This document shows, piece by piece, positions 967 to 56,621 of a stretch of DNA of 64,000 nt. This DNA comes from Aliivibrio sifiae. Lineage in GTDB: Bacteria; Pseudomonadota; Gammaproteobacteria; Enterobacterales; Vibrionaceae. Made by a program: the position numbers and the translations under genes. Below the pieces are notes generated by a model. That model ran no database searches. It was not told where the DNA came from and worked only from the letters and a program-made list of their open reading frames with translations. The stretch's first letter is position 1. The number at the start of each line of letters is the position of its first letter. The stretch is taken from assembly GCF_002954705.1 (NCBI RefSeq), contig NZ_MSCO01000002.1:1350829-1414828 (forward strand). Direction: 5' to 3'.

Positions 967-1563
967 GGTTCTGTCGCATAGCAGGGAACTAAATCGTCCG
1001 TGTGATGCTCAAATTGAAACGCAAAGTATCCCCATCATGGCGCATGGATGAAACCTACATCAAAATTAAGGGCGAATGGTGGCATTACTACCGAGCCGTT
1101 GATAAATATGGTGACATCGTAGATTTTTATCTAAGCAAAGAACGCGATGAAAAAGCGGCGCAAACCTTTCTACGTAAGGCAATCAATACTAATGGATTGC
1201 CAGATAAAGTGGTCATAGATAAGAGTGGGGCCAATGCGTTGGCTCTACATAATCTGAACGTCAAATTATGGCTAAGCGTTGTTTTTATGCTAAACTTAAT
1301 TGATATAGTCGATGTAAAATATCTCAATAACATCGTTGAGCAAAGCCATAGGCCATAAAGCAAAAGATGTATCAGGCGTTGGGTTGGAAATCTGTGGAAG
1401 GAGCAACTGCAACTATGTCAGGTCAAGAAGTTTGGACTCAAATTAAACGGGGTCAAGTTGGCGATGTAAGTTTACCCGTATGGGAGCACTTTTACGCGCT
1501 CGCTGCATAATTGTGTCTGGAGATCGGCATGCCTGTATCTAACTAAACCTTTGTGACAGAACC
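967..1563 (+). mobile_element. Internally deleted IS6-family element (type A)
   Basis: Terminal inverted repeats are visible at both ends: GGTTCTGTCGCATAG at 967 and, on the opposite strand, GGTTCTGTCACAAAG ending at 1563. These match the usual IS6-family end, which starts GGTTCTGTTGCA. The element is about 600 bp against roughly 800 bp for the family. The missing part is the transposase N-terminal DNA-binding region. No 8-bp target duplication is seen (ccatattt on the left, tcagatca on the right), so the ends have been rearranged since insertion. Its sequence is distinct from the IS copies found elsewhere in the window. Confidence 0.75.
1002..1510 (+). pseudogene. IS6-family transposase, 5'-deleted and frameshifted
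   Basis: The first frame (1002-1358) encodes the catalytic core: WRMDETYIKIKG with the first Asp, VVIDKSG with the second Asp, and NIVEQSHR with the Glu, so the DDE triad survives. At about 1350 the frame shifts. The C-terminal end, recognisable as GWKSVEGATATMSGQ and on to a TAA at 1508-1510, continues in another frame. About 60 N-terminal residues are missing. The protein is expected to be inactive. Confidence 0.8.
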
Positions 1564-1827
1564 TCAGATCATGCACCCATTAAGAAATTGAAGCTACCGG
1601 CGGTTTCAAAATTCAAAAACGTGCTTGGTCAACAATTCAAGGGTTTGAATCATTACGGATGTTAAATAAGGGACAATTTGATTTTTGGTTGCGTAACGAT
1701 AGACGGAAAACAATAATACGAGAGAGATCCGCCTTCATTAAGCGGCCTCTTTAATATTGAGATTATTTTACAATCATAATGAGACCATTGTAGGCCTCAT
1801 TTATCTATTCAGATTATTTGCAACAAC
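1564..1827 (+). mobile_element. 3' remnant of IS6-family element (type B)
   Basis: This stretch matches the last third of the intact element at 13365-14222, from the transposase motif HAPIKKL through GFESLRMLNKGQFDFWLRND to the right inverted repeat (attatttgcaaca) near 1827. The 5' two thirds are gone, replaced by the type A element directly adjacent. It lies in the same orientation as the intact copy beyond the polyketide locus. The flanking phosphopantetheinyl transferase gene reads into this end. Confidence 0.8.
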
Positions 1828-2588
1828 TCTGAGTATGTGATCACATATTCACTATAGACGCTGAATGATACAGTTTGCTTAATTGGGAGTTGGTAATGTA
1901 AAGCAAAGTCTTCATTTAAATGAAATACCATTTTAAAATTATCATCATCTACAAATTTTAACTTAGCCACCTCAAAGTCAAAATATTCATTAACATAGCT
2001 AAACAAAGATTTAAAAATACTTTCTTTTGCAGAAAAAATTAAAGAGAATACTTGCGATTCAGAATACCCACAACTTTTAAGCAGTGTATTTTCATTAATA
2101 TCAAAAATATGACTTGAAACTTCATTCACAATATTTATTGGGCAAATATTTTCGATATCAACACCTATCGATAATCTATCTACGCTTTTTTTTGATACCA
2201 TAACTAAAGCTGTATCACTAGTATGACTAATAGAACCTAAAATATTAGTTGGCCAGATAGGCTGACGAAAATCTCCAATTCCTATATCAAAACAATATTG
2301 ACTATCACCTTTTAGATATTTTAAAGCAAACCTAGCAGATAATCTACCGGCTAAAAATTCCGCTTGACGCTCTTTTAATGATTTTAAAATCATTTTTGGT
2401 AAAAAAACATTAAGGGAGCTGTACAAAACCAATGAGTACTTCGCTTGTGAAAATGTCAAAGCAACTAAAATCTGTTCATTACATTCATTGATGAAAAGTG
2501 AACAATCATTAACAAATGGCGTGTTCAAATCTAACTTTTTATAAAATACAAATCCTGTTAACATAAATATCCATGTGAATTTTAACAC
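1809..2588 (-). CDS. 4'-phosphopantetheinyl transferase, EntD/Sfp type
   Basis: It transfers the phosphopantetheine arm of CoA to a serine of carrier proteins and is the natural activator of the ACP in the neighbouring polyketide synthase. Family motifs are visible: a GSISHT-like segment, IGVDIE with the metal-binding Asp and Glu, and FSAKESIFK, the WxxKEA-like helix. The longest frame of 259 residues starts at a GTG (2588). An internal ATG at 2564, preceded by GGA at a suitable distance, is an equally good start and gives 251 residues. The last five residues and the stop codon are read from the inverted repeat of the adjoining insertion sequence, so the natural C-terminus has been replaced. 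It is separated from the exporter gene by a terminator, so it is probably transcribed alone. Confidence 0.85.
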   Translation of the reverse strand: MLKFTWIFMLTGFVFYKKLDLNTPFVNDCSLFINECNEQILVALTFSQAKYSLVLYSSLNVFLPKMILKSLKERQAEFLAGRLSARFALKYLKGDSQYCFDIGIGDFRQPIWPTNILGSISHTSDTALVMVSKKSVDRLSIGVDIENICPINIVNEVSSHIFDINENTLLKSCGYSESQVFSLIFSAKESIFKSLFSYVNEYFDFEVAKLKFVDDDNFKMVFHLNEDFALHYQLPIKQTVSFSVYSEYVITYSELLQII

Positions 2589-2812
2589 ACCATAGGAAAA
2601 AATAAGCTCATAACTGGGTCGTTATATATCAGCCCAAACAAAGCCAACTTTGTTAATTGATGCTTGAGAAGAAATTTACGATTTTTGATTTATAATAGCA
2701 CTCTTCACCGTTGCAAAAAATCCACCTGAACTGCCAATATAATTGGAGAGCGCGATAATGATCTTATATTTGTCAGTGTATTCTCTTAGAATAGCTAAAT
2801 CGTTGTCGAAAG

Positions 2813-2836
2813 GGTTGCAGCGTGGAAGCTGCAACC
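2813..2836. repeat. Perfect 9-bp inverted repeat
   Basis: ggttgcagc (2813-2821) and gctgcaacc (2828-2836) form a stem with a 6-base loop. On the minus strand it is followed by CTTTC, a poor T-tract, so it may be a second terminator or a protein-binding site. The flanking bases repeat part of the stem (aaggttgc). Confidence 0.45.
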
Positions 2837-2861
2837 GAAGGTTGCTTATCTTGAATTAAAG

Positions 2862-2891
2862 AAAAGGCCACTCCGAGAAGAAGTGGTCCTT
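2862..2891 (-). terminator. Terminator of the polyketide operon
   Basis: Arms aaggccact and agtggtcctt pair with one bulge around the loop at 2873-2881. On the minus strand the stem is followed by TTTTC and more T residues. It sits about 60 bases past the exporter stop codon. Confidence 0.6.
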
Positions 2892-2949
2892 AATTCAATA
2901 ATGCATACCAAGTAAGATTAAAATCGACTCATGTAAGTGAGTATAAGCC

Positions 2950-4218
2950 CTAATCCTCCACTGAAGCTAACCTAGGAAGTGCACCAATCTTTCTAAGCTT
3001 AGGAAAGCTCAAACCAACACCTGCAACAATCATGAGTAAAACGCCGCTTGCTATTAACGCTGTTTCAATCGATGTTTCAGCTATGGCAAAACCAAATATG
3101 CTCGCTGATACTGGAGTAAAACCTATAATGCAGAATAACAATATACTCATCGTTCTACCCATATACATAGCAGGGGTTCGTTGTTGGAACCATGTTGTAC
3201 CAGCAACACTTATCAACCCTAGACAAAAGCCAATAATCGCTATATGTCCCATTGCTATATGTAATGCTCCAGCATGAGCGAGCGATACCAGAACCCCGCT
3301 AGAAATTAAGTCACAAACAACTAATACAAATCCTAATGATTTTGCAGGTATTTTAACTAGCATCGCTGTGATCGTCCCAATTAACAGACCCCCTCCCAAT
3401 GCAGAGTATAGATTCCCGTAACCTGTAATCTCCGTCATAAATTTTTGTTTCGCTAAGAGTGGCATCGAAATAGCTAGTGGGCCATGTATGAAAAACGCTG
3501 CGGCCAACAAATAAACCATTATAAGTAGAATCGCTTTATCACGAAAACAAAACTTAAGCCCATCAACAAAAAATAAAATAAAATTATTAATTTTTTCTGA
3601 TTTCACATTAGCCTTCAGCTTAATCCTTAAAACTAGTAGTAATGAAAGAGCCAGTGCAAACGCGTCAACTAAAAAAGCCAATGCGATACTGAATAAATGA
3701 ACATCACCCTCAGCAACTTGATAATAGTTTCTAAAAGTATAAATAACCCAAGAAGCGAGTATCGGACCAACCACTTGTGCAAGTTGAGTTGTTCCCATGA
3801 AAATGCCATTACCTATGTTCAGTTTTTCCTCTGGGATAAGCGAAGGTAATAACGACTGACTAGATGACAAGGATATTGAGGAGAATGTACCAATGAAAAA
3901 TGCGAACACATATAAATGCCATAGCACCATAAACTCAGAGGAAACCAAGGCAAACAATGCAAATAATGTCAAACAAAACAGAACTCTTGATATTATTAAT
4001 ACTCGATATGGGGAGTAGACATCAGAGAGCACGCCTCCAAATAAAATAAAGAAACCTTGAGGCAAACTCATGCAAACAATAACTGAGCTAAGTGTCAACG
4101 GATTATTATCGATTGACAGAACCAACCAAGGTAGTGCGACAAGGGTAAAAAACCCACCTATAGAAGCAAGAATGAAAGATATACAAAAATAGACAAAATT
4201 CGATTTACTCCAACTCAT
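2950..4218 (-). CDS. MFS exporter of the polyketide locus
   Basis: A 422-residue inner-membrane protein with about twelve hydrophobic segments. The loop after the second segment (GGVLSDVYSPYRVLI) matches the major facilitator motif A pattern GxLaDrxGrkxxl. The overall look is that of EntS/macrolide-efflux type proton-driven exporters. The start ATG has a good site (GAGGG, 8 bases upstream). It follows the deacetylase gene by 124 bases on the same strand and precedes the terminator at 2862-2891, so it is probably the last gene of the synthase operon. By context it exports the product or provides self-protection. The substrate is unknown. Confidence 0.8.
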   Translation of the reverse strand: MSWSKSNFVYFCISFILASIGGFFTLVALPWLVLSIDNNPLTLSSVIVCMSLPQGFFILFGGVLSDVYSPYRVLIISRVLFCLTLFALFALVSSEFMVLWHLYVFAFFIGTFSSISLSSSQSLLPSLIPEEKLNIGNGIFMGTTQLAQVVGPILASWVIYTFRNYYQVAEGDVHLFSIALAFLVDAFALALSLLLVLRIKLKANVKSEKINNFILFFVDGLKFCFRDKAILLIMVYLLAAAFFIHGPLAISMPLLAKQKFMTEITGYGNLYSALGGGLLIGTITAMLVKIPAKSLGFVLVVCDLISSGVLVSLAHAGALHIAMGHIAIIGFCLGLISVAGTTWFQQRTPAMYMGRTMSILLFCIIGFTPVSASIFGFAIAETSIETALIASGVLLMIVAGVGLSFPKLRKIGALPRLASVED

Positions 4219-4342
4219 GATATTACCCTCAAAAATACATCACAATGTAATGCTGCAACGTTCAAAATAGATCTACTATGCTTTGGCATGATTACCTCTA
4301 TAAGTTGTATCTATATAATTTTTAAATTGTCTAATTATGAAT

Positions 4343-5242
4343 TTATATAACAGCAAAGTCACTATCAAGCCAATGTCTCGGCAAGGCAAAGCGATCTATA
4401 TTACAGACATCACGACTAATAACTGTTACTGCGGACGAATATCCAACCTTTCGAACCATTGCCTTAACGCGTTCATTATGGTCACCATAAGGGTATGCAA
4501 AATGCTTAACCTCTGCACCTAAAACATTCTCCAACTTTCTTTTAGATTCTAATAATTCAAATTCAACATTCTGGCTCTTTAGCTGACTTAATCGTGGATG
4601 CGTTACAGTATGAGATCCAATAGTAACAAGCTCATTATTACTTAGTTCAATAACCTGTCGCCAGTTTAGGGAATAACGTCTATTTATAATTTCATCATCT
4701 ACACCAATTAATTTTAATATCTCAAGTAGTTTTCCAGAATCATTGCCATCACATAATTCTTCAACCAGATTAGACAAAAAATAAATAGCTTCTCTCTTCT
4801 CAGACTTTGTCTCTGCTCTAAGTGAATAGTCCTTATTAGCAATAGAAAACTTCAATGATGGCAAGGATCTGACATGATCCTCCAGAATCCCAAAAGAGTG
4901 GATACATTTACTATCTGGGTAGCCACTAGTAAAATAAAGACAAGCTGGTATTCTGTGTTCTTTTATTATCGGGAACACAACATCATAGAAATCAACATAC
5001 CCATCATCAAATGTTAAAACTATACACTTATTATTAGTTCCAACATCTAAGGATAAAACATCATCAATTGAAATGAATTCGTAGCCATTATTTTTTGAAT
5101 ATTTTATGAATTCAACCAAATCTCTCTCCGCCATTTCCATTATAGAAACTGGAGCAACTCTGTTGTCATAATCAACATCACTAAGTACTCGATGCAGCGC
5201 AATTATATTGATTGAATCATTTAAAAAATCGTAAGTTATCAT
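4343..5242 (-). CDS. NodB-homology polysaccharide deacetylase
   Basis: This 299-residue protein has the NodB/carbohydrate esterase 4 signature: TFDDGYVDF with the catalytic and metal-binding Asp pair, SHTVTHP with the two zinc-binding His, and FAYPYG for the substrate-binding motif. These enzymes remove N-acetyl groups from amino sugars such as GlcNAc. There is no signal peptide, so the enzyme is probably cytoplasmic, as with enzymes acting on soluble or lipid-linked sugars. The site AAAGAG lies 5 bases before the ATG. It lies directly downstream of the synthase, which suggests that a deacetylated amino sugar is the acceptor or a building block of the product. That role is inference. Confidence 0.8.
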   Translation of the reverse strand: MITYDFLNDSINIIALHRVLSDVDYDNRVAPVSIMEMAERDLVEFIKYSKNNGYEFISIDDVLSLDVGTNNKCIVLTFDDGYVDFYDVVFPIIKEHRIPACLYFTSGYPDSKCIHSFGILEDHVRSLPSLKFSIANKDYSLRAETKSEKREAIYFLSNLVEELCDGNDSGKLLEILKLIGVDDEIINRRYSLNWRQVIELSNNELVTIGSHTVTHPRLSQLKSQNVEFELLESKRKLENVLGAEVKHFAYPYGDHNERVKAMVRKVGYSSAVTVISRDVCNIDRFALPRHWLDSDFAVI

Positions 5243-5271
5243 ACTTGCTCTTTAATATATTAAATTAGTGC

Positions 5272-5297
5272 ACCTGTGGCTGAGAACAACCACAGGT
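5272..5297. repeat. Stem-loop between synthase and deacetylase genes
   Basis: acctgtgg and ccacaggt form a perfect 8-bp stem with a 10-base loop, extended by a ttag/ctaa pairing after a 3-base bulge. There is no T-run on either side, so it is more likely an mRNA-processing or stability element inside the operon than a strong terminator. Confidence 0.5.
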
Positions 5298-5350
5298 CTA
5301 ATTAAGTTATAATTTCATAGTTATTAAATAATACAGATATGTATATTCAA

Positions 5351-8300
5351 TTATTCACTTGCATTGATGAAGGATTCTTTAATATTACAAATCAAATTGT
5401 CTATTGTTGACTTCTTGTAAAGATCTTTATTATAATTCATTTCAATATAGCACCCATCTTTTTTAATTGTCACTTCAAAGTAGAATAAAACCCCACGATT
5501 AAGCTCGCCACTTGCCCAATATTTATCGGCAACATTCTCATAATACCAATCTCCAAATTCCCATCTAGTATTACCACTAGGAAATATAAACAATTCGTCA
5601 GTAGATGATGCGCTATTGACATTAAACTCCGGCCTAATATTTATAGCCACCTGAGATGGTTGAATTACAGATATTTGCTCTTCTACCAAAGGGGCATTAC
5701 ATAAATATTTCAGTAGTGAGTAGTCCTCATTGTTATTCATCCCATTGTTGATTTGAGTAAAGGTATCCTTGCGACTAAGGTCAACCAATACAGGGTAATC
5801 CTCAGTGAAATAACCTAGCGTTGATGAAGCATCAGGCAATATGTCATTAGCTCTACGCCCATGGAATTGTAGATCAAACTGTAATTTACTAATCCCAGCC
5901 CAATCACCAATAGATCTAGCAATAAGTTCAATAACTTTCCTACTTTTATCTCCCTGTAGTTTTGAAACTTCTTTATCATCTATTAAAATAAGTTGAGTCC
6001 TACCGTTTTTGTATCGATTATTATCTAGATCTTGATTGTCAGTTTTTATTTCATCTGCACTTGACCAGTTTGATGACAGTAATTTTGGAAGCTGGCCTGT
6101 ACACTCCTCACTTTGAGCATAATCATTTAGTTTGTGACAGTACTCTGCGAAGGATCCAGTGACTAAGCTAACCTCATTTCCAGAAATCATTGAGTTATAT
6201 ACTCGATTAACCTGTTGCATTAATAATTTAACACTCATGCCATCAAGTAATAGCTGGTGATGAGTTAATAGTAAAACTTTCTCATCAAAATCATCAGAAC
6301 TAACTATATTAAACTTAAATGGTAGAGTGTGTAAGTTAATTTCAGAGATTGCACTTTGATATACTTTTTCATCAAATAAGTTGGTGGTTTTTATTTCACT
6401 AATTACCGACCCAATGCCATCATTGACAAATTCCACCATTCTTGACTTATCATTAATGTTCGATATTAACCTTAAAGAGTCGTTATCTTCCATCACCAGA
6501 AAAACTGCCGATTTGAAAGTATCTATATTGAATTTTGGATTTAGCCTCAAGACCAAACTTTGTGTCCAATGATTTAATTCATTCGCATCACAAGTCTGAA
6601 GTTGATTATTTACAACACTATAGCGACTAGGCAACCAAGGTGCATTTTTATATAACGATAAATCCTTATCTTTCGTCAATTCACTATTGAAGCTTGTTAA
6701 CTCCTCAACAATATACGTGACAATTCTGTTAATTGTCTGATACTTACTAACAAGCGAACCGGATACTTTTAAAGTTAACTGTAGCTGCAAAAGAGATGAG
6801 AACTCAATTGACATCAATGAATTAAGTCCATAGTCAAAAACACTAACATCAGGTTCAATATCATCAATAGAGCCTAGTCCCAATATATCTACGAAAGTCT
6901 GAGATACAAGCGAAGTAACCATGTTGAACTGTTCAGTTGACGAACTGCGAGAGAAATCCCCCATAAAATCACTTGCCACATTGCCCTTTTTCTCTTCAAC
7001 AAAATTAGAGAACACACTATGCTTCAATGGATTAGCAAACCTACTGACCGCATCTTCCCATACTAAGTCAAATACTCCGGCGTTTGGTACTCGGTAATTC
7101 AACAGATTTGTCATTTCATCAAATGCTTGCTCTGTGGATAAGAACCTCATACCGGAACTTTCCATCCGTCTCTTATCAACATCATCAAGATTTTTCGCCA
7201 TGCCTGCACTGCCCCAAGGCCCCCAGTTTACACTCAGCGTTGGAAAACCTTGCGCATTACGCCAATGAGCAAAACTATCCATAAATGCATTTCCTGCGGC
7301 ATAATTACTCTGTCCGGGCCACCCTATAATTGTCGCAATTGACGAGAAACAGATAAACAGATCCAACTTTGACTCGATGGTTGCGTTGTGCAGATTATAA
7401 GTTCCTTGAATTTTCGGAAGTAGCACATTAGCAAATTTATCTCTGTTTTGATTATTAATGGAAGCGTCATCTAGGACCCCTGCCGCATGAATCACCCCTC
7501 TTAATGGCGGCAAGTCTCGTTTGATTTCCTCTACTACTCTCACTACATCATTTAAATCACAAACATCAGCCCGCATAACAGATACATTAACCCCTGTAGC
7601 CTTGACATTTTCAATGGCATCAATGGCATGTGGTCTTGCATCGCTTCTGCTGATCAATACTATTGATTTGGCGCCATTATCCGCTAACCAATTCATTACT
7701 TCTAAACCTAAACCGCCTAAGCCACCAGTGACCAGATAGGTTGCATTTGAATATATAACTTCGTTATTACTTCCGAGAGTTACCACTGGTGGACGAGTAC
7801 TCATACTGCAAATCAACCGAGAACCTGATTCATTATCATACAAACTTGCAGATTGAGTTAACATATCGTTTATAGATTTAGTCTGTCGTGCTAACGGCAA
7901 AACACCATCATCTAAATAGGTATCTATACACATTCGCAAAAGTTCGTTTAACCTGAAGTTTTTAATAGAAAGTATAGATGATAGCTTCAAAGGGTAATAA
8001 ATAATTCCTTTTTGAGATATGACGTCAATCTGCTTTCTATTCAATGCAGCTTCAGTAGTAGTCAGATCAAGGAATCTTCCATTTTCTGCTATTACATCAA
8101 TCGCCTTGGACACCATTCTCCCATTAGATTGATTAAAAATCACATCAACCGACCCAATATCTTTCAGCTGTTGAGAGAAATCATTATCACTTGAGTTTAT
8201 TGCTATATCAGCCCCCCAGTTAAGAAGTTGCTCTCCATCTTTTTCTGAGTGAACAATCGCAACAACTTTCGCACCATTACGCTTAGCCACCTGAATAACT

Positions 8301-11300
8301 GCGTGTTCGAAGCTATTCAAAGTAGGTAATAGCAAAATTGTTTCGCCGCTAGTCAACTTTGAGCAATTTAACAGTACAAAATGTGCCTGAACAAAATCAC
8401 TTATATAATGAGCTTTACCTAGTGCCGACTTAGTACTTAACTTAGTTACATGATTTCCATCCACATCAATCAACGATGCAATATCGCCATTAAATAAACA
8501 GTAGATTTTATCTCCAGCAGCTATATCATTAACTCCACCTCCAATCTCTTCTATAGTTCCGATGATACCAATCAGTTGAGAACTATTAGTGTCAATGGCA
8601 CCCAAATCAAGATCACTACTTTCCACTCTAACTCTGACATTATAATTAGACAATGGAGGCAAAGATTGCTTAAAGACATCAATAGTTTTATTACCAAACT
8701 TTACTACATAATCATCTAGTACGTTTAGCTCAACTTTTCTCTCACTATAGTTAATCATATCTTTCATCGATAACTTACGTAATCGATTTACATAAATAGT
8801 ATCTGATCGAATTGCCAATTCTTGCTCAGTATTATCAGCTAGCATACACCTAACAAGTTTAGAAAAATTATTATCCAACTGAGTAGAGTCATATGGTAAA
8901 TCAACCAGATGTACATTCAGTTCAGGGTATTCCGAAGAATACACACGAGAGAACCCCCATATAGTAGCTTGCTCCGGATTAAACTGAGCATCACCGGGTA
9001 AAATAGCCTGTGAGGCGCTAGTAAAAAAGTATGTTGGAAGCCCCTTTAGGCTATCTATACCCACTATTGCTTGCGCTATCTTCAATGTTGAATCTGCAAG
9101 CTCAAGGGTTGAGTTGAATTTTTCTATCGCTTGTAAATGATCAAGAGGCCAGAGATAAATTACTTTTGTGATTCGATCATGAATACCATCCGTAAGCAAC
9201 TCCAAAGCGTTAGACCATGAATAATTTGAGTCAGTAATTTCAAGTATTTGTTTTTTAGTAATCGACCTGTACTTTATATCGTGTTCACTAATATAACTTT
9301 CAAAATCTCCAGAGTTGTCACCTTCACCTGCAAGTACTAACCAAAGTTCATTTTTGCCATCTATCGCCTCACTAGTGAGTGATAACTCTTCCCATTGATA
9401 ATCGTAACAAATCTTCTCTGCCGTCTTATCTGAACTCATGCTATTTGCTTTTAAAGACACCCCAATTACTTCAACTTGTACCTTTCCGTTACAATCCAAT
9501 ATTGTAATATTACCTAATATGTCAGTTTTAGTACGGTTGGTGGTAACAAGGTGCGCATAACAGCGAGGACTAGGCTTCTCATAGAGCCTAATCGCCTCAA
9601 TAGCTACGGGCAAGAAACTAGTTTTGATTGTTGGGAATAAACTCTGAAATGCACAATCTAGAATGCAAGGATGTAACGAATATTCATTAGCATCTTTTGT
9701 TTCTGTACTACTCAAATCAATCTCAACTAATGATATTTTATCTCCATACCAACACTGATGAACCGATTGGAATGAATCTTCATAATTCATCCCCATCTGA
9801 TGACAATGATTGTAAAAATCCACTTTTGTATAGTAGCTTTCCATTTCTGATTTAATACTATCTATATCAAATGTTTCGCTATCAGATTCATGAGTATCTA
9901 GAGTGACAACACCCTTCCCAAAAACTTCCCAATTTTCTGTAGCACTGTCTTGCGCTTGAATCACGTAACTACCAGAATATTCATCCAAACTAGTTTCCAG
10001 TAATATTGATTTCTTATTATCTAAATACAGAGCTCTATTAAATTCAATATCTTCAAGTACGATGATATTTTTTGAGGTTTTATGCTTAGCTAGCTCCATA
10101 CCCATTTCGATATAACAAGCTCCGGGATAAATAATTTCAGTGTCTACTTTATGTCCACTTAAATACTCCTGTTTTTCTAAGTCAATTTCAGAATGCCAAA
10201 TTAAATTAGTAGAGTTCAATTTAGCACCAAGAAGGTCGTGGTTACTCTTATGAAAGCCACCCTGTTTGCGAACATTACTTATGCGTGAAGATGCTACATC
10301 CTCATTTTCAATCCAATAAGAATTGTGATCCCATGCATAATTCGGTAAAGATACTGACTTAGAGCCGCGATTGCATAATTTAGACCAATCCACAGTGTAG
10401 CCAGATACATGTAGTTCCAGAATTGATTTCATGACCATTTCATGATCATTTTCTTTACGAATAAGCGAAGACACGACAGTACTCGCCTCCCCAGCTTCGT
10501 TGGAGTTAGCAATAATTGAACTCGACAATACAGCATGAGGGGATATTTCTAGAAATGTAGTAGTTCCACCTGACGTGATATTATCAATGGCTTTCTTAAA
10601 CAATACTGGTTGTCGCACATTCTCAGCCCAATACACCGAATTCCAGCAATCGGGGCCACTGACATCACCCGTCACTGTAGAATATATTGGAATGCTTGGT
10701 ACATGCGTTGTTATGCTAGATAAAGCATCAACAAGTGGCTCTTTAATCCTATCCATAATCGGACTGTGATACGGCACATTTACATTTAGCATTCTGGAAA
10801 ACACACCGTCAATATCAAGCTGACTTGACAACTTTTCCAATTCAATCTCACATCCAGCAAGAGTTATAGCCCGCTCACTATTAATCGCGGCAATAGTCAC
10901 CCTATCTTTAATATCCATTAGATACGGTGTTAATTCTTCTTCTGAAAGCGCAACAGCAAGCATTTTCCCTGAACCTTCAGTTGTATGCTGCAATCGACTA
11001 CGATGATAAATCACCTTTATAGCATCATCAAAGGAAAGAGCCCCTGAAGCATAAGCTGCGGCTACTTCGCCAGCACTATGACCAACAATGCAACTCGGTT
11101 TAATTCCCCAACTTTCATAAAGCTCGGTAAGAGCAACTTGAGTAGCGAAGATTGCTGGCTGTGCAATGTTTGTAGTATGGATTCTATCTTTATTATCCAT
11201 ATGATAAATTTCATCTACTAAGCTAATATCGCTATACTTTTCTATTGCTGCACTACATCGGTCTATCGCAGCTTTAAACACGGGTTCCTTGATATATAGT

Positions 11301-12967
11301 TCTTTACCCATCCTTGCCCACGTTGTACCCATTCCCGAAAATGTAAAGCACAGGTCATTAGCATTAGATAAGTTAGCAGCACCAACTGAATAGTTTTCAC
11401 TAGGCGAGTTAGATAAGAAATTTTCTAACTCTAATATTAATTTTGCTTTATTAGGCGCCTTTATGGAAATGCGGTGTTTAAAATGATCACGCTTAATACA
11501 AGCAGAATAACAGACGCTACTCAGATCGGATTCATCAATGTTAGGTAAAAACTGTAGCCAATTTTCGACTGTCGATTTCAAGCCAACCTTAGTTTTTGAA
11601 CTCAACACGAGAATACTATTTCGATTGCTTACACTTTCAGTTTTTTTATTACTGACCATAGGTGCTTGTTCAACAATAACATTTGCATTCGTTCCACCAA
11701 ATCCAAAAGAGTTGACGAGAGCGCGCCTTTTCTCACCTTTGCTAATAGGCCACTGAGTATTGCTGGATACGATGTCTACGTTCAGTTTTTTTAAATCAAT
11801 AGCTGGATTAGTATCGTTATAATGAAGGTTGCTAGGAATTACACCACTATTCATCGACATCACAACCTTAATCAGACCAGCCACTCCAGCCGCCGCTTCT
11901 GTATGGCCTATATTACTTTTCACTGAGCCAATAAGGCATTTATTGGCATTTTCTTCTCTTATGCCAAATATTGAACCTAAAGCATTCACTTCAATCGGAT
12001 CGCCTACAGGAGTCCCTGTGCCATGAGCCTCAATATATTGAATTTCATTCGGAGTAATGTTGGCTTTTTGTAGGGTTTTGTTAATAAGTTTCTTCTGTGC
12101 TTCACCATTAGGAACCGTAATTCCATTAGTATGCCCATCTTGGTTAATGCCACTAGATTTAATTACAGCTAGTATGTTATCGCCATCTATCAACGCAGAT
12201 TTTAGGCTTTTAAGCATAACTAGCCCAGCCCCTTCACTTCGAACATAGCCGTTTGCTTTTGCATCAAAACTTTTGCATTTAGCATCTGGTGAGAGCATAG
12301 AAGCCTTACATATAGATAACGTTAACTCTGGCCTTAATAATAAATTAACCCCCCCAGCGATCGCTAATTTACTATCCCCATTGATTATTGATTTACAGGC
12401 CATGTCTATTGCAACCAATGAAGAAGAGCAAGCCGTATCTAACGCAACACTTGGCCCCGTAAAGTCATATATATACGATAACCTATTCGCCGTTAGGGTC
12501 ATTGATGAACCAGTGGCTGAATGGTTGCAAATGTTACCATGTGCCATTGAATCTAACTGAATCTGCTCATAATCATGCATAAACTGCCCGATAAAAACAG
12601 CTGTATCACTACCTTTCAAGTCTGAGGCTTTCTGTCCCGCATTTTCTAGCAGTTCATGTGTGATCTCTAATAACCAACGGTGTTGTGGATCTATATGCGG
12701 AGCCTCATTAGGTGAGATACCAAAAAACTGTGGATCGAATTGGTCCAAACCAGATATAAACCCTCCACGACTAACAAACATTTTACCCGTTTTATTTTTG
12801 TCCTCATCATAGAATGCTTTTGAATCCCAACGTTCTCTTGGGATATCAACAATTCCATCGCCTCCATTTAACAGGAAATCATAATATAAATCTGGACTAC
12901 TGCAATTTCCCGGCAGACGACACGACATACCTATAATGGCAATATCACTATTAGTTTGGTTACTCAT
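5351..12967 (-). CDS. Single-module type I polyketide synthase with C-terminal condensation-like domain
   Basis: A 2538-residue megasynthase. Domains by motif: ketosynthase about 7-435 (DTACSSS with Cys180, EAHGTGT with His315, NIGH with His355); acyltransferase about 540-850 (GHSAGE, Ser631; VPYHSP near 731-736, which does not clearly tell malonyl from methylmalonyl); dehydratase about 905-1175 (His939; Asp1104 in LHPCILD); KR structural half about 1190-1400; a shortened ER-like segment about 1410-1700 without a recognisable glycine-rich NADPH loop; KR about 1740-1960 (GGLGGLG, Lys1852, Ser1876, Tyr1889, Asn1893); ACP about 2010-2095 (GLNSLMS, Ser2050); and a condensation/PapA-like domain about 2105-2538. 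There is no thioesterase, so release is probably by the last domain. A single complete module suggests iterative use, and a dead ER would favour a polyene or enoyl chain. The start is supported by AGGG 8 bases upstream. The product is unknown. Confidence 0.9.
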   Translation of the reverse strand: MSNQTNSDIAIIGMSCRLPGNCSSPDLYYDFLLNGGDGIVDIPRERWDSKAFYDEDKNKTGKMFVSRGGFISGLDQFDPQFFGISPNEAPHIDPQHRWLLEITHELLENAGQKASDLKGSDTAVFIGQFMHDYEQIQLDSMAHGNICNHSATGSSMTLTANRLSYIYDFTGPSVALDTACSSSLVAIDMACKSIINGDSKLAIAGGVNLLLRPELTLSICKASMLSPDAKCKSFDAKANGYVRSEGAGLVMLKSLKSALIDGDNILAVIKSSGINQDGHTNGITVPNGEAQKKLINKTLQKANITPNEIQYIEAHGTGTPVGDPIEVNALGSIFGIREENANKCLIGSVKSNIGHTEAAAGVAGLIKVVMSMNSGVIPSNLHYNDTNPAIDLKKLNVDIVSSNTQWPISKGEKRRALVNSFGFGGTNANVIVEQAPMVSNKKTESVSNRNSILVLSSKTKVGLKSTVENWLQFLPNIDESDLSSVCYSACIKRDHFKHRISIKAPNKAKLILELENFLSNSPSENYSVGAANLSNANDLCFTFSGMGTTWARMGKELYIKEPVFKAAIDRCSAAIEKYSDISLVDEIYHMDNKDRIHTTNIAQPAIFATQVALTELYESWGIKPSCIVGHSAGEVAAAYASGALSFDDAIKVIYHRSRLQHTTEGSGKMLAVALSEEELTPYLMDIKDRVTIAAINSERAITLAGCEIELEKLSSQLDIDGVFSRMLNVNVPYHSPIMDRIKEPLVDALSSITTHVPSIPIYSTVTGDVSGPDCWNSVYWAENVRQPVLFKKAIDNITSGGTTTFLEISPHAVLSSSIIANSNEAGEASTVVSSLIRKENDHEMVMKSILELHVSGYTVDWSKLCNRGSKSVSLPNYAWDHNSYWIENEDVASSRISNVRKQGGFHKSNHDLLGAKLNSTNLIWHSEIDLEKQEYLSGHKVDTEIIYPGACYIEMGMELAKHKTSKNIIVLEDIEFNRALYLDNKKSILLETSLDEYSGSYVIQAQDSATENWEVFGKGVVTLDTHESDSETFDIDSIKSEMESYYTKVDFYNHCHQMGMNYEDSFQSVHQCWYGDKISLVEIDLSSTETKDANEYSLHPCILDCAFQSLFPTIKTSFLPVAIEAIRLYEKPSPRCYAHLVTTNRTKTDILGNITILDCNGKVQVEVIGVSLKANSMSSDKTAEKICYDYQWEELSLTSEAIDGKNELWLVLAGEGDNSGDFESYISEHDIKYRSITKKQILEITDSNYSWSNALELLTDGIHDRITKVIYLWPLDHLQAIEKFNSTLELADSTLKIAQAIVGIDSLKGLPTYFFTSASQAILPGDAQFNPEQATIWGFSRVYSSEYPELNVHLVDLPYDSTQLDNNFSKLVRCMLADNTEQELAIRSDTIYVNRLRKLSMKDMINYSERKVELNVLDDYVVKFGNKTIDVFKQSLPPLSNYNVRVRVESSDLDLGAIDTNSSQLIGIIGTIEEIGGGVNDIAAGDKIYCLFNGDIASLIDVDGNHVTKLSTKSALGKAHYISDFVQAHFVLLNCSKLTSGETILLLPTLNSFEHAVIQVAKRNGAKVVAIVHSEKDGEQLLNWGADIAINSSDNDFSQQLKDIGSVDVIFNQSNGRMVSKAIDVIAENGRFLDLTTTEAALNRKQIDVISQKGIIYYPLKLSSILSIKNFRLNELLRMCIDTYLDDGVLPLARQTKSINDMLTQSASLYDNESGSRLICSMSTRPPVVTLGSNNEVIYSNATYLVTGGLGGLGLEVMNWLADNGAKSIVLISRSDARPHAIDAIENVKATGVNVSVMRADVCDLNDVVRVVEEIKRDLPPLRGVIHAAGVLDDASINNQNRDKFANVLLPKIQGTYNLHNATIESKLDLFICFSSIATIIGWPGQSNYAAGNAFMDSFAHWRNAQGFPTLSVNWGPWGSAGMAKNLDDVDKRRMESSGMRFLSTEQAFDEMTNLLNYRVPNAGVFDLVWEDAVSRFANPLKHSVFSNFVEEKKGNVASDFMGDFSRSSSTEQFNMVTSLVSQTFVDILGLGSIDDIEPDVSVFDYGLNSLMSIEFSSLLQLQLTLKVSGSLVSKYQTINRIVTYIVEELTSFNSELTKDKDLSLYKNAPWLPSRYSVVNNQLQTCDANELNHWTQSLVLRLNPKFNIDTFKSAVFLVMEDNDSLRLISNINDKSRMVEFVNDGIGSVISEIKTTNLFDEKVYQSAISEINLHTLPFKFNIVSSDDFDEKVLLLTHHQLLLDGMSVKLLMQQVNRVYNSMISGNEVSLVTGSFAEYCHKLNDYAQSEECTGQLPKLLSSNWSSADEIKTDNQDLDNNRYKNGRTQLILIDDKEVSKLQGDKSRKVIELIARSIGDWAGISKLQFDLQFHGRRANDILPDASSTLGYFTEDYPVLVDLSRKDTFTQINNGMNNNEDYSLLKYLCNAPLVEEQISVIQPSQVAINIRPEFNVNSASSTDELFIFPSGNTRWEFGDWYYENVADKYWASGELNRGVLFYFEVTIKKDGCYIEMNYNKDLYKKSTIDNLICNIKESFINASE

Positions 12968-13364
12968 TTTAAGACCCTATTAATACAACTATAGAAAAAT
13001 GGAATACATCGAGTCTCATAATGTATGATCAAACGATTGAGATTAAAGCATTATTTTTTATAGAACAATTGCAATTGCGATTGACTTCAAACAATCAAAA
13101 CACTAACTAACTACAAGGAAAATATTATAAGAGAATATCCAGAATGTGGATCTACCCGTATAGGTAAAGAGAAATGACATGACGCTGTACCAAATACTTT
13201 TGAAATACTAGGTTCCGCAGCTCTGGGACAAACTGGAGATCTTGTCTGTAACGATTGTAAACATACTTCTACACCTAATTGCTTCTAAACAAAAAATAAC
13301 GACTGGGTAAAATCAAATAAAGGGGCGTGATGCCAATCAGTTGATCTCATGCTAAGATCGGAGG
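12968..13364. other. Leader region upstream of the polyketide synthase
   Basis: About 400 bases without an intact gene. The part nearest 12968 must carry the synthase promoter. On the minus strand TTGTTC and TAATCT, 17 bases apart near 13035-13063, are a weak candidate only. A broken zinc-ribbon-like frame lies at 13115-13288. The right edge is the insertion sequence at 13365. Confidence 0.4.
13115..13288 (+). pseudogene. Possible zinc-ribbon protein remnant
   Basis: One frame reads YPECGSTRIGKEK, then a TGA at 13175, then continues in the same frame to LVCNDCKHTSTPNCF and a TAA. The spaced CxxC-like pairs (ECGS, CNDC) resemble a zinc ribbon split by one nonsense codon. No start codon is evident. 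It may be a decayed gene from outside the polyketide locus. The evidence is weak. Confidence 0.3.
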
Positions 13365-14222
13365 GGTTGTTGCAAAAAATTTAGTATCAGCCAAAATCCT
13401 TTCTTTCCCGATCTAATCGAGCGACTCAATGACCAATCCTGATTTTAAATGGAAACACTTTGCACCAGAAATTATACTTTGGTGTTTACGTTGGTATGGT
13501 TCAACGCCAATGAGTTACGCAAATCTCAGTGATATGCTCGCAGAGCGAGGCATATCGGTTAATCGCTCCACTATTTATCGTTGGTTTATTGAATATTCCC
13601 CTAAATTACGAAAAAAGTTACATCGTAATTATCAATTCATTAAAACCGACTCATCCTGGCAACTTGATGAAACCTACGTCAAAGTGAAGGGGAAATGGCA
13701 CTACCTTTACCGTGCCATTAATAAGCAAGGAGATACTCTCGATTTTTATTGTTCCCACAAGCGCAATAAAGAAGCTGCCTACCAATTCCTTAAGCGTTGC
13801 TTAAGATATTACGACATAGACAATCAACCTAAAACGTTAAACACGGACAAACATTCCTCATACGCCAATGCTATTGCCCGATTGAAGAAGGAAGGACGAC
13901 TACGAGAGGATGTCGAGCAGCGGCAAGTTAAATGCCTCAATAATGGCATTGAGTCCGATCATGCCCCCATTAAGAAATTGATCGTGGCCGCCGGTGGTTT
14001 CAAACTGAGGAAGCGAGCTTGGTCAACCATTCAAGGATTTGAATCTTTACGAATGTTGAATAAGGGACAATTTGATTTCTGGTTACGTAATGATAAACGT
14101 GAAACGGTAGTACGGGAGAGATCCGCCTTCCTCAATCGTTTATTCAATGTTGAGGTCGTTTTTCAATAATAATGAGTCGATAATAGGACTTATTTATCAA
14201 CTCAGATTATTTGCAACAGCCC
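13365..14222 (+). mobile_element. Intact IS6-family insertion sequence (type B)
   Basis: About 858 bp with terminal repeats GGTTGTTGCAAA at the left and, on the opposite strand, GGCTGTTGCAAA at the right, typical of IS6/IS26-like ends. It encodes one full-length DDE transposase. I see no 8-bp target duplication, which in this family often means replicative or recombination-driven rearrangement after insertion. Remnants of the same element occur at 1564, 22101, 23864 and about 41000. This is the only full-length copy in the window and could be the active source. Confidence 0.85.
13429..14169 (+). CDS. IS6-family transposase, full length
   Basis: A 246-residue DDE transposase. An N-terminal helix-turn-helix-like region (residues about 20-55, SYANLSDMLAERG) is followed by the catalytic core, with the first Asp in WQLDETYVKVKG, the second in NTDKHSSY and the Glu in NNGIESDH. 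It catalyses replicative transposition, forming cointegrates, and typically moves DNA lying between same-orientation copies. The C-terminal end GFESLRMLNKGQFDFW is the part preserved in the remnants elsewhere. The reading frame is intact. Confidence 0.9.
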   Translation: MTNPDFKWKHFAPEIILWCLRWYGSTPMSYANLSDMLAERGISVNRSTIYRWFIEYSPKLRKKLHRNYQFIKTDSSWQLDETYVKVKGKWHYLYRAINKQGDTLDFYCSHKRNKEAAYQFLKRCLRYYDIDNQPKTLNTDKHSSYANAIARLKKEGRLREDVEQRQVKCLNNGIESDHAPIKKLIVAAGGFKLRKRAWSTIQGFESLRMLNKGQFDFWLRNDKRETVVRERSAFLNRLFNVEVVFQ

Positions 14223-14398
14223 CCCCCTGAAGAAGGCATTAAGCTCACTTGACCTTTTTCACTCAAAACAATCACGCTGCTGCGATGTTGTTCAATAACA
14301 CGTCCGATTTGAGAGTCAGTTAAATCACCTAACGTTAGTTGTTGTTGAAAATAAGGTCGCCAACCTAGTTGAGATAGCGTAAGAGGCTGTCCGCTCAT
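14222..14398 (-). pseudogene. Truncated second copy of rsgA
   Basis: The first 57 or so residues (MSGQPLTLSQLGWRPYF onward) match the N-terminus of the intact RsgA encoded next door nearly residue for residue, with scattered differences (GDLTDSQIG against DDLTDLQTG). The frame then runs into the right end of the insertion sequence and stops (open frame 14207-14398). The OB-fold is incomplete and the GTPase domain is lost. Its own site GGAG precedes the ATG by 7 bases. The divergence shows this was a separate paralogue, not a recent duplication by the insertion. Confidence 0.85.
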
Positions 14399-14497
14399 TG
14401 ATAGCTCCGTAATAAAATAAGGACCGAGATACTATGTATCCAATAAGTTCATAGTAGTAGAAACCAATAAGCAATGATTGAAAAAAACGACACATAT

Positions 14498-14548: not shown

Positions 14549-15610
14549 TTAATAAGCGTTAGACTCATAATCTTTTTTACGACTACGAGCATCCGCTATT
14601 GCGCCATGTACCATCTTACCAAACGCTTTATCTTTTGCGCGTTGCTCTGCCAAACTAGCACCATTAATCGCTTGTTCACGCATTAGTTTTTGAAAACTCA
14701 CTAAACGACGCTCTTCAAGTTGGCCTAGCTCAACAGCTTTTAATACTGCACAACCTGGCTCTGATATATGAGAACAATCCCCAAAACGACATTTTTCGGC
14801 AAGATCCGTGATCTCACTAAACGTTGCATTTACGCCTTGTTCGCAATCACTCAGTTGAAGCTCGCGCATCCCAGGGGTATCCATTAATAGACCGCCTTGT
14901 GGCATTAATTTAAGCGCGCGGTACGTTGTCGTATGGCGGCCTTTGCTGTCATCTTCACGGATATTTCCTGTTTCTTGAACTTCAAAACCAAGTAACCCAT
15001 TCACAAGTGTTGATTTACCCACACCAGATGAACCTAAGAAAGCAATAGTTTGTCCATTTTTACAATAACTATGTAAAGCAACTAAATCATTAGTATCAAG
15101 GGCATTTACACTGTAAACACTCATCATTCGATTCAGTTTCTGAACTTGATCTTGCTTGTCATCTGCATCGTCACATAAGTCCGCTTTAGTTAGTACCACA
15201 ACTGGTTCTACTTCGGCTTCTTTTGCAATAGCAAGGTAACGTTCAATACGACTCAAATTAAAGTCATTATTTAATGAACACACAATCATGACGTTATCTA
15301 CGTTCGCTGCAATTAATTGCGTTGCAACTTTTGACCCTGGGGCTTTGCGATCAAACAGAGATTGTCTATCCAATACGCGCTGAATTCGTAGATTTTCATC
15401 AAACAATACCCAATCACCTACACAAACACGATCATCCCCTGATGGTGGTAATAAGCTTACTTGGCCCTGTTCACTCAAAACAATAATACTGCTTCGGTGC
15501 TGCTCGATAATTCGACCCGTTTGTAAGTCAGTTAAATCATCTAGAGTCAGTTGTTGTTGAAAATAAGGACGCCAGCCTAGTTGTGATAGTGTGAGAATTT
15601 GCTCACTCAT
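14549..15610 (-). CDS. rsgA: Ribosome small-subunit-dependent GTPase A
   Basis: A circularly permuted GTPase that assists late 30S subunit maturation. It has an N-terminal OB-fold (to about residue 110), then a GTPase domain with the motifs permuted in order: LTKAD (G4), GSSGVGKST (G1), DTPGM (G3). A C-terminal zinc finger follows (CRFGDCSHISEPGC, Cys/His ligands). The longest frame starts at 15622, but the internal ATG at 15610 is preferred. It has GGAG 7 bases upstream, and the truncated paralogue at 14398 starts at the matching residue, giving 353 residues. Confidence 0.93.
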   Translation of the reverse strand: MSEQILTLSQLGWRPYFQQQLTLDDLTDLQTGRIIEQHRSSIIVLSEQGQVSLLPPSGDDRVCVGDWVLFDENLRIQRVLDRQSLFDRKAPGSKVATQLIAANVDNVMIVCSLNNDFNLSRIERYLAIAKEAEVEPVVVLTKADLCDDADDKQDQVQKLNRMMSVYSVNALDTNDLVALHSYCKNGQTIAFLGSSGVGKSTLVNGLLGFEVQETGNIREDDSKGRHTTTYRALKLMPQGGLLMDTPGMRELQLSDCEQGVNATFSEITDLAEKCRFGDCSHISEPGCAVLKAVELGQLEERRLVSFQKLMREQAINGASLAEQRAKDKAFGKMVHGAIADARSRKKDYESNAY

Positions 15611-15636
15611 TTGTTGCTCCATACATATGGTAGATT

Positions 15637-21086: not shown

Positions 21087-21212
21087 AGCTAACGCCTGCA
21101 TAACACGTTTACTACTATGCAATTATGCTTAATATTGTATAGTAGTAAAGGAGAAACACCCGACAACCTGAGATGCCGAGTGTAGTAAATCGTGTTGATG
21201 CGATTGCTATGC
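21087..21212 (-). repeat. Integron attC site 1 (126 bp)
   Basis: The outer simple sites are agctaac (21087-21093) and gctatgc (21206-21212). Inner arms gcataacacgtttactac and gtagtaaatcgtgttgat are near-complementary with one unpaired base, the extrahelical-base pattern of attC. It shares about two thirds of its bases, mostly in the arms, with sites 2 and 3 and has the same length. The hydrolase stop codon lies inside its outer repeat, as is usual for cassettes. Confidence 0.75.
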
Positions 21213-21956
21213 CTGTTGTTTCAACTTGGCACAAGACTCACCAGACAGAAAACCTTTAGTGATTAACCTAACTTTATTAATTACTTTTTCTGAACCGTAA
21301 TCAGTTAAATCCATATGTTTCGAATTTTCAATTTCGACAATGCAACTATGATATTTACTTTGCTCTTTTTCAGTTAACAAAGCACTAGCCACTGTCGGGT
21401 ATTCGGTCGCTCTTATTGATAATACTTGGATCCTAGCTGTTTTTGGCAGAGCCACTCTACGATGATCTAATGTGATGACTTTGCTTATGTATGACTTATT
21501 TTCAGAAGCTAGCCATGCTGATATATCACCGCCATTTGAATGCCCAACTAACAGAATATTTTGAAAATCATACTCAGGATAACGAAGTGATATATTACTT
21601 TGCAGAAAATCTAACGTTTCAGCACCACGCTTCCAATTTTCGATCCTAGTTTGATATAAATCCCCTTTTTTAGATAAAGGAGGATCATTTGGTAATTCAT
21701 GATCAACAGCAACAGTTAAGTAGCCCATTTCATTTAAATTTTGAACCATCAACTGATATTTCAAATACGGGACTTTAAAACCAGCACTAACAAATGCAAC
21801 CTTACACTTATTACTCGTAGTGCATAAATCCTTTTGGACAGGAAAATCTACCGTTATTGGAATATTTCGCTCTCGGCTAGCATCGTAGATATCCAAAGAA
21901 GTTGCCATAACTGAGCTAGTTAATAACGACAACGCAAGAGGTACTGCAAACTTCAT
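21207..21956 (-). CDS. Alpha/beta hydrolase cassette protein, secreted
   Basis: About 249 residues with a signal peptide (MKFAVPLALSLLTSSVMA), so periplasmic or exported. The nucleophile elbow is VGHSNGGD (GxSxG), with a late Asp (TLDHRR) and His (SKHMDLTD) suited to the triad. It resembles dienelactone hydrolase or chlorophyllase-like esterases; the substrate is unknown. The ATG at 21956 is preferred over 21968 because AGGAG lies 4 bases before it. It is part of the integron array, with attC site 1 downstream and a broken attC plus a tandem repeat upstream. Confidence 0.75.
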   Translation of the reverse strand: MKFAVPLALSLLTSSVMATSLDIYDASRERNIPITVDFPVQKDLCTTSNKCKVAFVSAGFKVPYLKYQLMVQNLNEMGYLTVAVDHELPNDPPLSKKGDLYQTRIENWKRGAETLDFLQSNISLRYPEYDFQNILLVGHSNGGDISAWLASENKSYISKVITLDHRRVALPKTARIQVLSIRATEYPTVASALLTEKEQSKYHSCIVEIENSKHMDLTDYGSEKVINKVRLITKGFLSGESCAKLKQQA

Positions 21957-21980
21957 AAATCTCCTCATTTATATCAAAAC

Positions 21981-28461: not shown

Positions 28462-28686
28462 GATTTCATCCTTGTCTATAAACAATAAAAATGAGGCGAT
28501 TAACGCCCCACTTTCGTTTATAAAATTAGCAAGGATTGATGGATTGACGATAAAAACAGAGACAAATAAGCGCTTTATTTACACATTTGTTATCTGCTTT
28601 CCATCTAATAATGAGTTAAATGAAAACACATTATATTCTTTCGAGTCAGTTCATTATTTATGCTTTACCTCAACATCAAGCTCAAT

Positions 28687-56206: not shown

Positions 56207-56621
56207 AATTTGATTTCCTTACATCCAATGTATTACGACTAAGATCCAAAAAAGAGTCCAATATAATGGCTTCTTCCCCTTGCTCAGACAGCATCGCCGC
56301 AGAAATACGAAACTGTAATTGATTTTTTAATTTTTCTTGCTCTTCTACTTCAATCAAGACATCAATTAATCTAGGTTCATAGCGACGGATCAAATAAGTA
56401 ATATCAGCAATAATTACATCACTATTCGATTTACTCTGTGCGCGAGTCATATTACGTAATCCAACATATGCAATCGTATCAACTAACTCATCAGATGATT
56501 CTAATGCCGACCAAATTGGAGCTCTGCTTGATATAAGATCACAAATGTTATCAATAATTGCATCACGTACTGCATCTACATCATTCGTCCAAGATTGGGT
56601 TAATTTCGCCATTAAGCTCAT
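56199..56621 (-). CDS. tssE: T6SS baseplate protein TssE
   Basis: 140 residues of the gp25-like family. The conserved NMTRAQSKS and RYEPRLIDV stretches sit where the family has its sheath-initiating core. Overlaps the preceding tssC-like gene by 4 bases. Confidence 0.9.
   Translation of the reverse strand: MSLMAKLTQSWTNDVDAVRDAIIDNICDLISSRAPIWSALESSDELVDTIAYVGLRNMTRAQSKSNSDVIIADITYLIRRYEPRLIDVLIEVEEQEKLKNQLQFRISAAMLSEQGEEAIILDSFLDLSRNTLDVRKSNFV

Follow-up and report, generated by a model that had tools for sequence, protein, structure and literature searches.

Aliivibrio sifiae carries a compact locus in which a known kind of polyketide synthase (PKS), a single module like mycocerosic acid synthase (MAS), carries a fused C-terminal domain, which we call E-like for its likeness to epimerization (E) domains and HQ for its altered motif, and forms a conserved trio with CE4 and MFS genes. 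The locus lies at 1809-12967 of the window, meaning the whole 64,000-nucleotide stretch analyzed (contig NZ_MSCO01000002.1, positions 1,350,829 to 1,414,828 of the forward strand). It consists of four open genes, all on the minus strand, for the PKS, a CE4 deacetylase, a major facilitator superfamily (MFS) exporter, and an EntD-type phosphopantetheinyl transferase (PPTase). An earlier annotation made from the letters of this DNA, the sequence-only reading, gave these four open reading frames (ORFs) at the right coordinates; none has an internal stop and all have strong Pfam matches.

5351..12967, minus strand: single-module type I PKS, KS-AT-DH-psiKR-ER0-KR-ACP-E-like, 2538 aa (Pfam, MAS match)
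4343..5242, minus strand: CE4 (NodB-fold) deacetylase, 299 aa (Pfam, conserved D79-D80-H211-H215, no membrane-spanning segment)
2950..4218, minus strand: MFS exporter, EntS/TIGR00900-like, 422 aa (Pfam, NCBIfam)
1809..2588, minus strand: EntD/Sfp-type PPTase, 259 aa, GTG start as listed (Pfam)

Our tentative reading, at somewhat less than even confidence, is that the locus makes an exported polyene-acyl compound, and that the E-like HQ domain passes the chain to an amine exposed by the CE4 enzyme. The four genes would be co-transcribed as an operon; promoter and terminator scans of the locus give sites no more than chance. The locus's own PPTase would load the PKS ACP, the MAS-like single module would iterate with a dead ER leaving double bonds in the chain, and the terminal domain would take the chain from the ACP and hand it to an amino group. 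That group would be exposed by the CE4 protein, which has no export or membrane signal, through de-N-acetylation of a sugar like N-acetylglucosamine, and the MFS protein would export the product. We infer the chain type, the amide-forming release, the sugar partner, and the export. A bolder form strikes us as unlikely: an E-type domain would have been converted to amide-forming release, acylating an amino sugar generated by CE4, and the locus would stand for an exported class of polyene lipo-amino-sugars that is new and has spread among marine bacteria along with insertion sequence (IS) elements.

The PKS has Pfam matches to ketoacyl-synt (E = 9.4e-82), Acyl_transf_1 (2.8e-72), PS-DH (2.5e-22), and ADH_zinc_N (3.3e-13), then in the C-terminal part to KR (1.7e-66), PP-binding (4.3e-10), and Condensation (8.4e-24). 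Its nearest solved protein is MAS, in one continuous match over residues 8-2088, which supports a MAS-like single module, as the sequence-only reading had it; a psiKR between DH and ER is supported only indirectly, through that end-to-end match. The module would be used iteratively. A polyunsaturated fatty acid synthase is rejected, with a PfaA score of 394.3 against a cut-off of 1010.1.

Catalytic motifs were judged in an alignment of the PKS with seven relatives, found by scanning GTDB contigs with six peptide patterns. The closest in organization is in Microbulbifer aggregans (L011), where the PKS-CE4-MFS trio stands in the same order with identities of 47.7% for the PKS (near full length), 41% for CE4, and 48.5% for MFS.

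11471..12949, minus strand: KS and KS-AT linker, aa 7-499, Cys and both His present, DTACSSS
10397..11347, minus strand: AT, aa 541-857, GHSAGE and VPYHS motifs
9446..10240, minus strand: DH, aa 910-1174, catalytic His and Asp (LDCAFQ) present, T for G in HxxxGxxxxP
7763..8785, minus strand: ER-like domain, aa 1395-1735, glycine-rich motif lost
7211..7744, minus strand: KR, aa 1742-1919, GGLGGLG, LDD, and catalytic Tyr present
6710..6907, minus strand: ACP, aa 2021-2086, attachment Ser in GLNSLM
5354..6700, minus strand: E-like domain of the condensation superfamily, aa 2090-2538 (sequence and predicted fold)
6239..6259, minus strand: HQLLLDG, Gln for the second His of HHxxxDG (alignments)
5867..5869, minus strand: Gln, aa 2367, at the Glu site of (L)EGHGRE in E domains (alignments)

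The glycine-rich NADPH motif of the ER is degenerate, reading PTLNSFEHA in the window against AASGGTGQA in the JamJ ER. The M. aggregans ER is likewise degenerate and has no ADH_zinc_N match at 0.001. ER activity is very probably lost, and the PKS product would therefore be a polyene or a partly reduced chain. The sequence-only reading had proposed the same, and the intact KS, AT, DH, KR, and ACP motifs agree with it.

The terminal domain of the synthase

In a profile search of the Protein Data Bank with the terminal domains of the window and M. aggregans, the E domains of nonribosomal peptide synthetases (NRPSs) come first, with GrsA at 7.5e-22, BacC at 1.3e-20, and TycA at 3.6e-18. An AlphaFold2 model built from nine sequences has a mean predicted local distance difference test (pLDDT) score of 75.8. 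With this predicted model, Foldseek ranks TycA-E first at 1.1e-22, and VIA-align gives PvdL-E2 a Z of 30.1 with a root mean square deviation (rmsd) of 3.1 over 402 residues, and TycA-E a Z of 28.1 with rmsd 3.4 over 413. The nine best VIA-align matches, Z 26.7-30.1, are all E-bearing entries, of which the top 50 holds eleven. C-type domains run from Z 24.5 (AmbE-CmodAA) down, where the GrsA-E entries 5isx (24.5) and 5isw (23.6) are also found, so that over the top 50 the E-bearing entries span 23.6-30.1 and the other superfamily members 21.9-24.5. E and C domains are one superfamily, and the fold alone is insufficient to settle which this is; by sequence and predicted fold together, the terminal domain is closest to E domains. 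The domain order in the sequence-only reading, KS-AT-DH-psiKR-ER*-KR-ACP-C, thus stands through the ACP and fails at the last domain, which is E-like and not plain C.

A plain E-domain assignment is in turn weakened by the NCBIfam model TIGR01720, which has a cut-off of 74.2 bits. The window domain has no match to it, and M. aggregans (20.1), Hahella (32.0), Sorangium (28.7), and locus L030 (33.5) all fall below, while a true E domain from locus L028 scores 126.2. The HGR and GYFTxxYP motifs are common to the window domain and E domains. Both in the window and in M. aggregans, HHxxxDG has become HQLLxDG and (L)EGHGRE has become LQ(F/H)HGRR, specifically LQFHGRR in the window. Among 19 domains compared, 15 keep HHxxxDG, L028C reads HHAVMDA, L008C2 is degenerate, and HQ occurs only in these two. 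Their terminal domains are 43% identical with the same HQ and LQ changes, which suggests that the domain is kept by selection.

A tree of the same 19 condensation-superfamily domains joins the window and M. aggregans (100/100) and puts L030 and L031 nearest (91/84); deeper order is at 53/7 and two rows have very long branches. The L030 and L031 domains (L030:1462-2871 and L031:1471-2877) are C-terminal and E-like, keep HH, and have Gln at the E-domain Glu site (IQRHGRR); the one in L030 is preceded, by eye, by an adenylation domain. An NRPS of M. harenosus (L008:16390-22593) ends with a degenerate domain (IQRLLLDR) and then a domain grouping with the PKS-terminal domains of Hahella and Sorangium (100/99). 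The HQ-type domain was also searched in 390 genomes of the M. aggregans order, 394 of the window's order, and 369 of the window's class, samples that overlap. In these, no genome but the two already known to have the domain scores about 900 bits or higher; four other places pass 1e-25, two in G364 and one each in G797 and G816, at 91-97 bits.

In E domains, the Glu of (L)EGHGRE has a catalytic role. Literature searches on the catalytic residues of E domains and on LovB with HHxxxDG found nothing. A passage of PMC1894796 ranks the second His first in importance among the catalytic residues of C domains, and one of PMC11546977 states that its mutation does not always abolish C-domain activity. 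With the second His of HHxxxDG absent, canonical C-domain release is set aside. The amine that is acylated in streptothrisamine sits on its amino sugar. Streptothricin ORF18 is a C domain with HQxxxDM that joins beta-lysine oligopeptide thioesters to this aminoglycoside, as described in part of PMC11546977. Because an HQ-type C domain acylates an aminoglycoside there, HQ is no proof of a dead domain, and by this analogy it neither proves nor excludes catalysis.

The main alternative, possible if doubtful, is that the domain is catalytically dead and kept for docking or as a chain-length gate, like the X domain of glycopeptide NRPSs, with release by hydrolysis or a trans-acting thioesterase and the CE4 enzyme acting elsewhere or later. 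The change of both E-domain positions, His and Glu, fits this, and inactive E domains and an X domain are described for glycopeptide NRPSs in a section of PMC1894796. X domains are among the structural matches (4tx2 and 4tx3), but E domains and many C domains outrank them. Downstream of the M. aggregans trio lie two CxxCH proteins and a type II thioesterase. No thioesterase family scores above cut-off among the Pfam-scanned window proteins, an alpha/beta hydrolase at 21207-21968 falling below it. The active HQ domain of ORF18 (PMC11546977, in the part cited above) also speaks against a dead domain.

Partner genes and relatives

The Pfam scan covered 37 of the 48 listed window ORFs, leaving out 11 small or overlapping ones; the 16.8 kb left flank was read by eye, with its split-gene and transposase pieces also scanned. 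Beyond the PKS and PPTase, those 37 hold no PKS, NRPS, adenylation, or glycosyltransferase family, so within this coverage the earlier statement that there are no other biosynthetic genes is correct. A siderophore cluster, considered for the EntD and EntS resemblance, is rejected since there is no adenylation domain in the 37 scanned proteins, nor by eye in the left flank.

The NodB/CE4 deacetylase, the MFS exporter, and the EntD-type transferase named by the sequence-only reading all hold as families. CE4 matches Polysacc_deac_1 (2.5e-27), and its catalytic Asp and Asp-His-His metal set (D79, D80, H211, H215) is present in 4/4 aligned CE4s; it has no membrane-spanning or signal-like segment. 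Its best NCBIfam score is to PgaB, below cut-off at 92.3 of 321.9 bits. The exporter matches MFS_1 (7.6e-28). The PPTase matches ACPS (2.2e-12) and 4PPT_N (4.8e-16), scores 103.8 bits against the EntD equivalog (cut-off 169), and belongs to the PPTase superfamily; no other match of this type is in the host genome at E 0.001. It is 77.3% identical in protein and 83.5% in DNA to a PPTase adjoining an NRPS cluster on a Vibrio tasmaniensis plasmid, p2 (L016:19985-20734), where it stands with three NRPS genes and a Tn3-family transposase is about 3 kb away. A shared origin with that cluster is rejected, the PPTase alone being in common.

In M. aggregans a glycosyltransferase family 2 (GT2) gene ends four bases before the PKS ORF, and CE4 begins two bases after it. 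The best match of this GT2, below cut-off, is the exopolysaccharide glycosyltransferase EpsD, with weak PgaC and NodC matches. Its position beside the conserved trio may be taken as new support for a sugar partner. The earlier proposal that the chain is joined to an amino sugar is plausible: the M. aggregans GT2, the CE4 residues, and the ORF18 precedent fit it, as do the intact KS, AT, KR, and ACP motifs, the DH His and Asp, the conserved order of the trio, and the setting of two plasmid-borne CE4 relatives in or near polysaccharide gene regions. Several points weigh against it. In the terminal domain, neither the second His of the HHxxxDG motif nor the E-domain Glu is left; the E domains it resembles are not amide-forming enzymes; its likeness to ORF18, which has HQxxxDM and not HQxxxDG, is by motif alone. 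The window locus has no glycosyltransferase, the host genome offering a weak partial GT2 match (31%, residues 6-100, 1.2e-6), and just one of the seven relatives' genomes has a CE4 match at E <=1e-10, so CE4 is not part of the wider PKS family.

The last point also fits a different arrangement: a polyene lipid from the PKS, with CE4 directed not at this product but at the cell envelope or an exopolysaccharide, for self-protection or as a hitch-hiker. CE4 relatives on two plasmids lie within or near polysaccharide gene regions, and six of the seven genomes are without a CE4 match at E 1e-10. We consider it improbable, given that in both species the CE4 gene stands between those for the PKS and the exporter, in M. 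aggregans two bases behind the PKS ORF.

Rare as the trio is, it is not unique, being present in M. aggregans as well. The sequence-only reading was aware of no characterized bacterial cluster with the same genes. Of 329 genomes from the same family, the window's own is the only one with a full-length PKS. At 1e-200 the PKS query finds 4/329, the own genome and three, set aside as equivalents, with PKSs of 31-35% whose long match ends at the ACP; two of these three loci were read (L017 and L018) and have several PKS ORFs side by side. Within the M. aggregans genus the query passes 1e-300 in 2/48 genomes, those of M. aggregans itself and of M. harenosus. Plasmid matches to the PKS come to 367 records, all <60%.

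An MFS gene lies <=10 kb from the PKS in four of the seven relatives (L008, L010, L011, L012); in the other three, from Motilimonas, the fetched DNA ends inside genes reading as NRPS. Beside the PKS/MFS loci of the same four are six unannotated CxxCH proteins of 502-553 aa, 34-51% identical, with one CxxCH each and, in 4/6, a hydrophobic N-terminal segment over threshold.

L008:22624-24237: CxxCH protein
L008:25755-27263: CxxCH protein
L010:17905-19434: CxxCH protein
L011:19740-21401: CxxCH protein
L011:21419-23017: CxxCH protein
L012:17960-19564: CxxCH protein

Pfam gives one of the six a below-cut-off carbohydrate-binding module match, and NCBIfam nothing for the four scanned. No CxxCH match is found in the window's genome, in a search without a positive control, or in the plasmid collection. 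L010 also has a 1499-aa ORF (4880-9379) that resembles an RND permease up to residue 1060 or so and, from 1076 on, an MFS transporter; such a fusion, if real, would be unusual.

Mobile setting and neighboring genes

The locus lies between the halves of a split rsgA-like gene and beside an ISVsa4-like IS6 element. The sequence-only reading had overlooked both of these, as well as the IS6 remnants on the left.

13363..14224, plus strand: IS6-family element, 93.9% to A. salmonicida ISVsa4, transposase at 13429-14169
967..1563, plus strand: IS6-family remnant, terminal-repeat-like ends, DDE-domain ORF at 1002-1358, 72% over 1033-1130 to the right-hand IS6
1564..1825, plus strand: remnant of the right end of an element like ISVsa4, matching the right-hand IS6 at its positions 592-856 (79.7%)
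14225..14407, minus strand: rsgA-like N-terminal remnant, residues 2-62, 80%, abutting the IS6 end
-2081..-1365, outside the window, minus strand: rsgA-like C-terminal remnant, residues 98-336 (sequence match)

The last codons of the PPTase gene overlap the 1564-1825 remnant, and pieces of an IS91-type transposase lie just outside the window on the left side. Both rsgA-like halves are about 80% identical to an intact copy at 14549-15622, and residues 63-97 are not found at the island ends. An intact ortholog is present in 12/13 sister genomes (91-97%). The exception is G005, whose sole copy is at 68%; G011 has a 68% copy in addition to its ortholog. No split copy is found in these 13 at E 1e-30. 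Because the flanks hold an IS6 element and a split rsgA-like gene, and the split copy is absent from the sister genomes, the locus was probably acquired horizontally. As for a composite transposon, the right IS6 is complete, the left side has remnants alone, and no target duplication is established.

It is likewise improbable that the locus is a passenger without function, mobile DNA from which the partners (GT2, CxxCH protein, thioesterase) were lost on transfer. In favor of this are the lack of these M. aggregans genes from the window locus, the negative genome search for the CxxCH protein (no positive control), the broken IS elements and split gene in the flanks, and promoter-like sites at chance level. 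Against it, the four genes are open, and the catalytic residues of KS, AT, DH, KR, ACP, and CE4 are in place.

Between the MFS and PPTase genes, a 48-base stretch at 2806-2854 has 98-100% identity to plasmid sites of Aliivibrio salmonicida and A. wodanis and is possibly a small repeat or cassette border. Elsewhere in the window, 27274-28485 encodes an LPMO/GbpA-type chitin-binding protein, and 43277-63966 is mostly a type VI secretion locus (IcmF, DotU, VasE, FHA, ClpV-like, TssG, TssF, VipA, Hcp, spike) with two adjoining VipB-type sheath genes at 56618-57970 and 58022-59503.

Comparison with known systems

No described cluster of this kind was found in a mostly titles-level literature search on Aliivibrio or M. 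aggregans polyketides, including part of PMC11285056, or on iterative PKSs with a polysaccharide deacetylase. The locus offers a small transferable system in which to ask if a condensation-superfamily domain without the canonical His, with HQ in its place, can release a polyketide onto a sugar amine. If it does, PKS chemistry is linked to a logic like that of Nod factors in a compact glycolipid pathway; if it does not, the locus presents an E domain inactivated in nature and joined to a PKS, useful for asking about residual roles.

The partners of the mycobacterial iterative PKSs of the MAS/Pks2 type are Pap and MmpL. The window PKS is like them in having one module, the same order through the ACP, and an end-to-end sequence match, and unlike them in its degenerate ER, the E-like domain after the ACP, and its CE4, MFS, and PPTase partners. 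The E domains of GrsA, TycA, TycB3, PvdL-E2, and BacC are the best sequence and fold matches and share HGR and GYFTxxYP with the terminal domain, which differs in having HQ for HH and Gln for Glu, and in sitting after a PKS ACP with no adenylation domain in the locus. ORF18, likened by motif alone, shares HQ for HH and, according to PMC11546977, has an aminoglycoside acceptor, but it has HQxxxDM in an NRPS C-PCP protein. The terminal CT-A domains of fungi, compared by description alone, are likewise condensation-superfamily domains after an ACP, and a passage of PMC10212144 has them in fungi alone. Hahella sp. CCB-MM4 and Sorangium cellulosum So ce26 each have a homologous PKS with a C-terminal condensation-superfamily domain and a TIGR00900-type MFS gene <=10 kb away. 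Their terminal domains retain HH, a CxxCH protein adjoins the PKS, and CE4 finds no match at E 1e-10.

The NodA/B/C logic of Nod factors comprises an acyl chain, CE4 deacetylation, an amino sugar, and export. At the locus no NodA or NodC is found, and the CE4 protein scores 45.7 bits against the NodB equivalog, with a cut-off of 240. What the proposed pathway would share with the Nod system is its logic, an acyl chain placed on a de-acetylated amino sugar, carried out here with a PKS and a built-in acyl-transfer domain.

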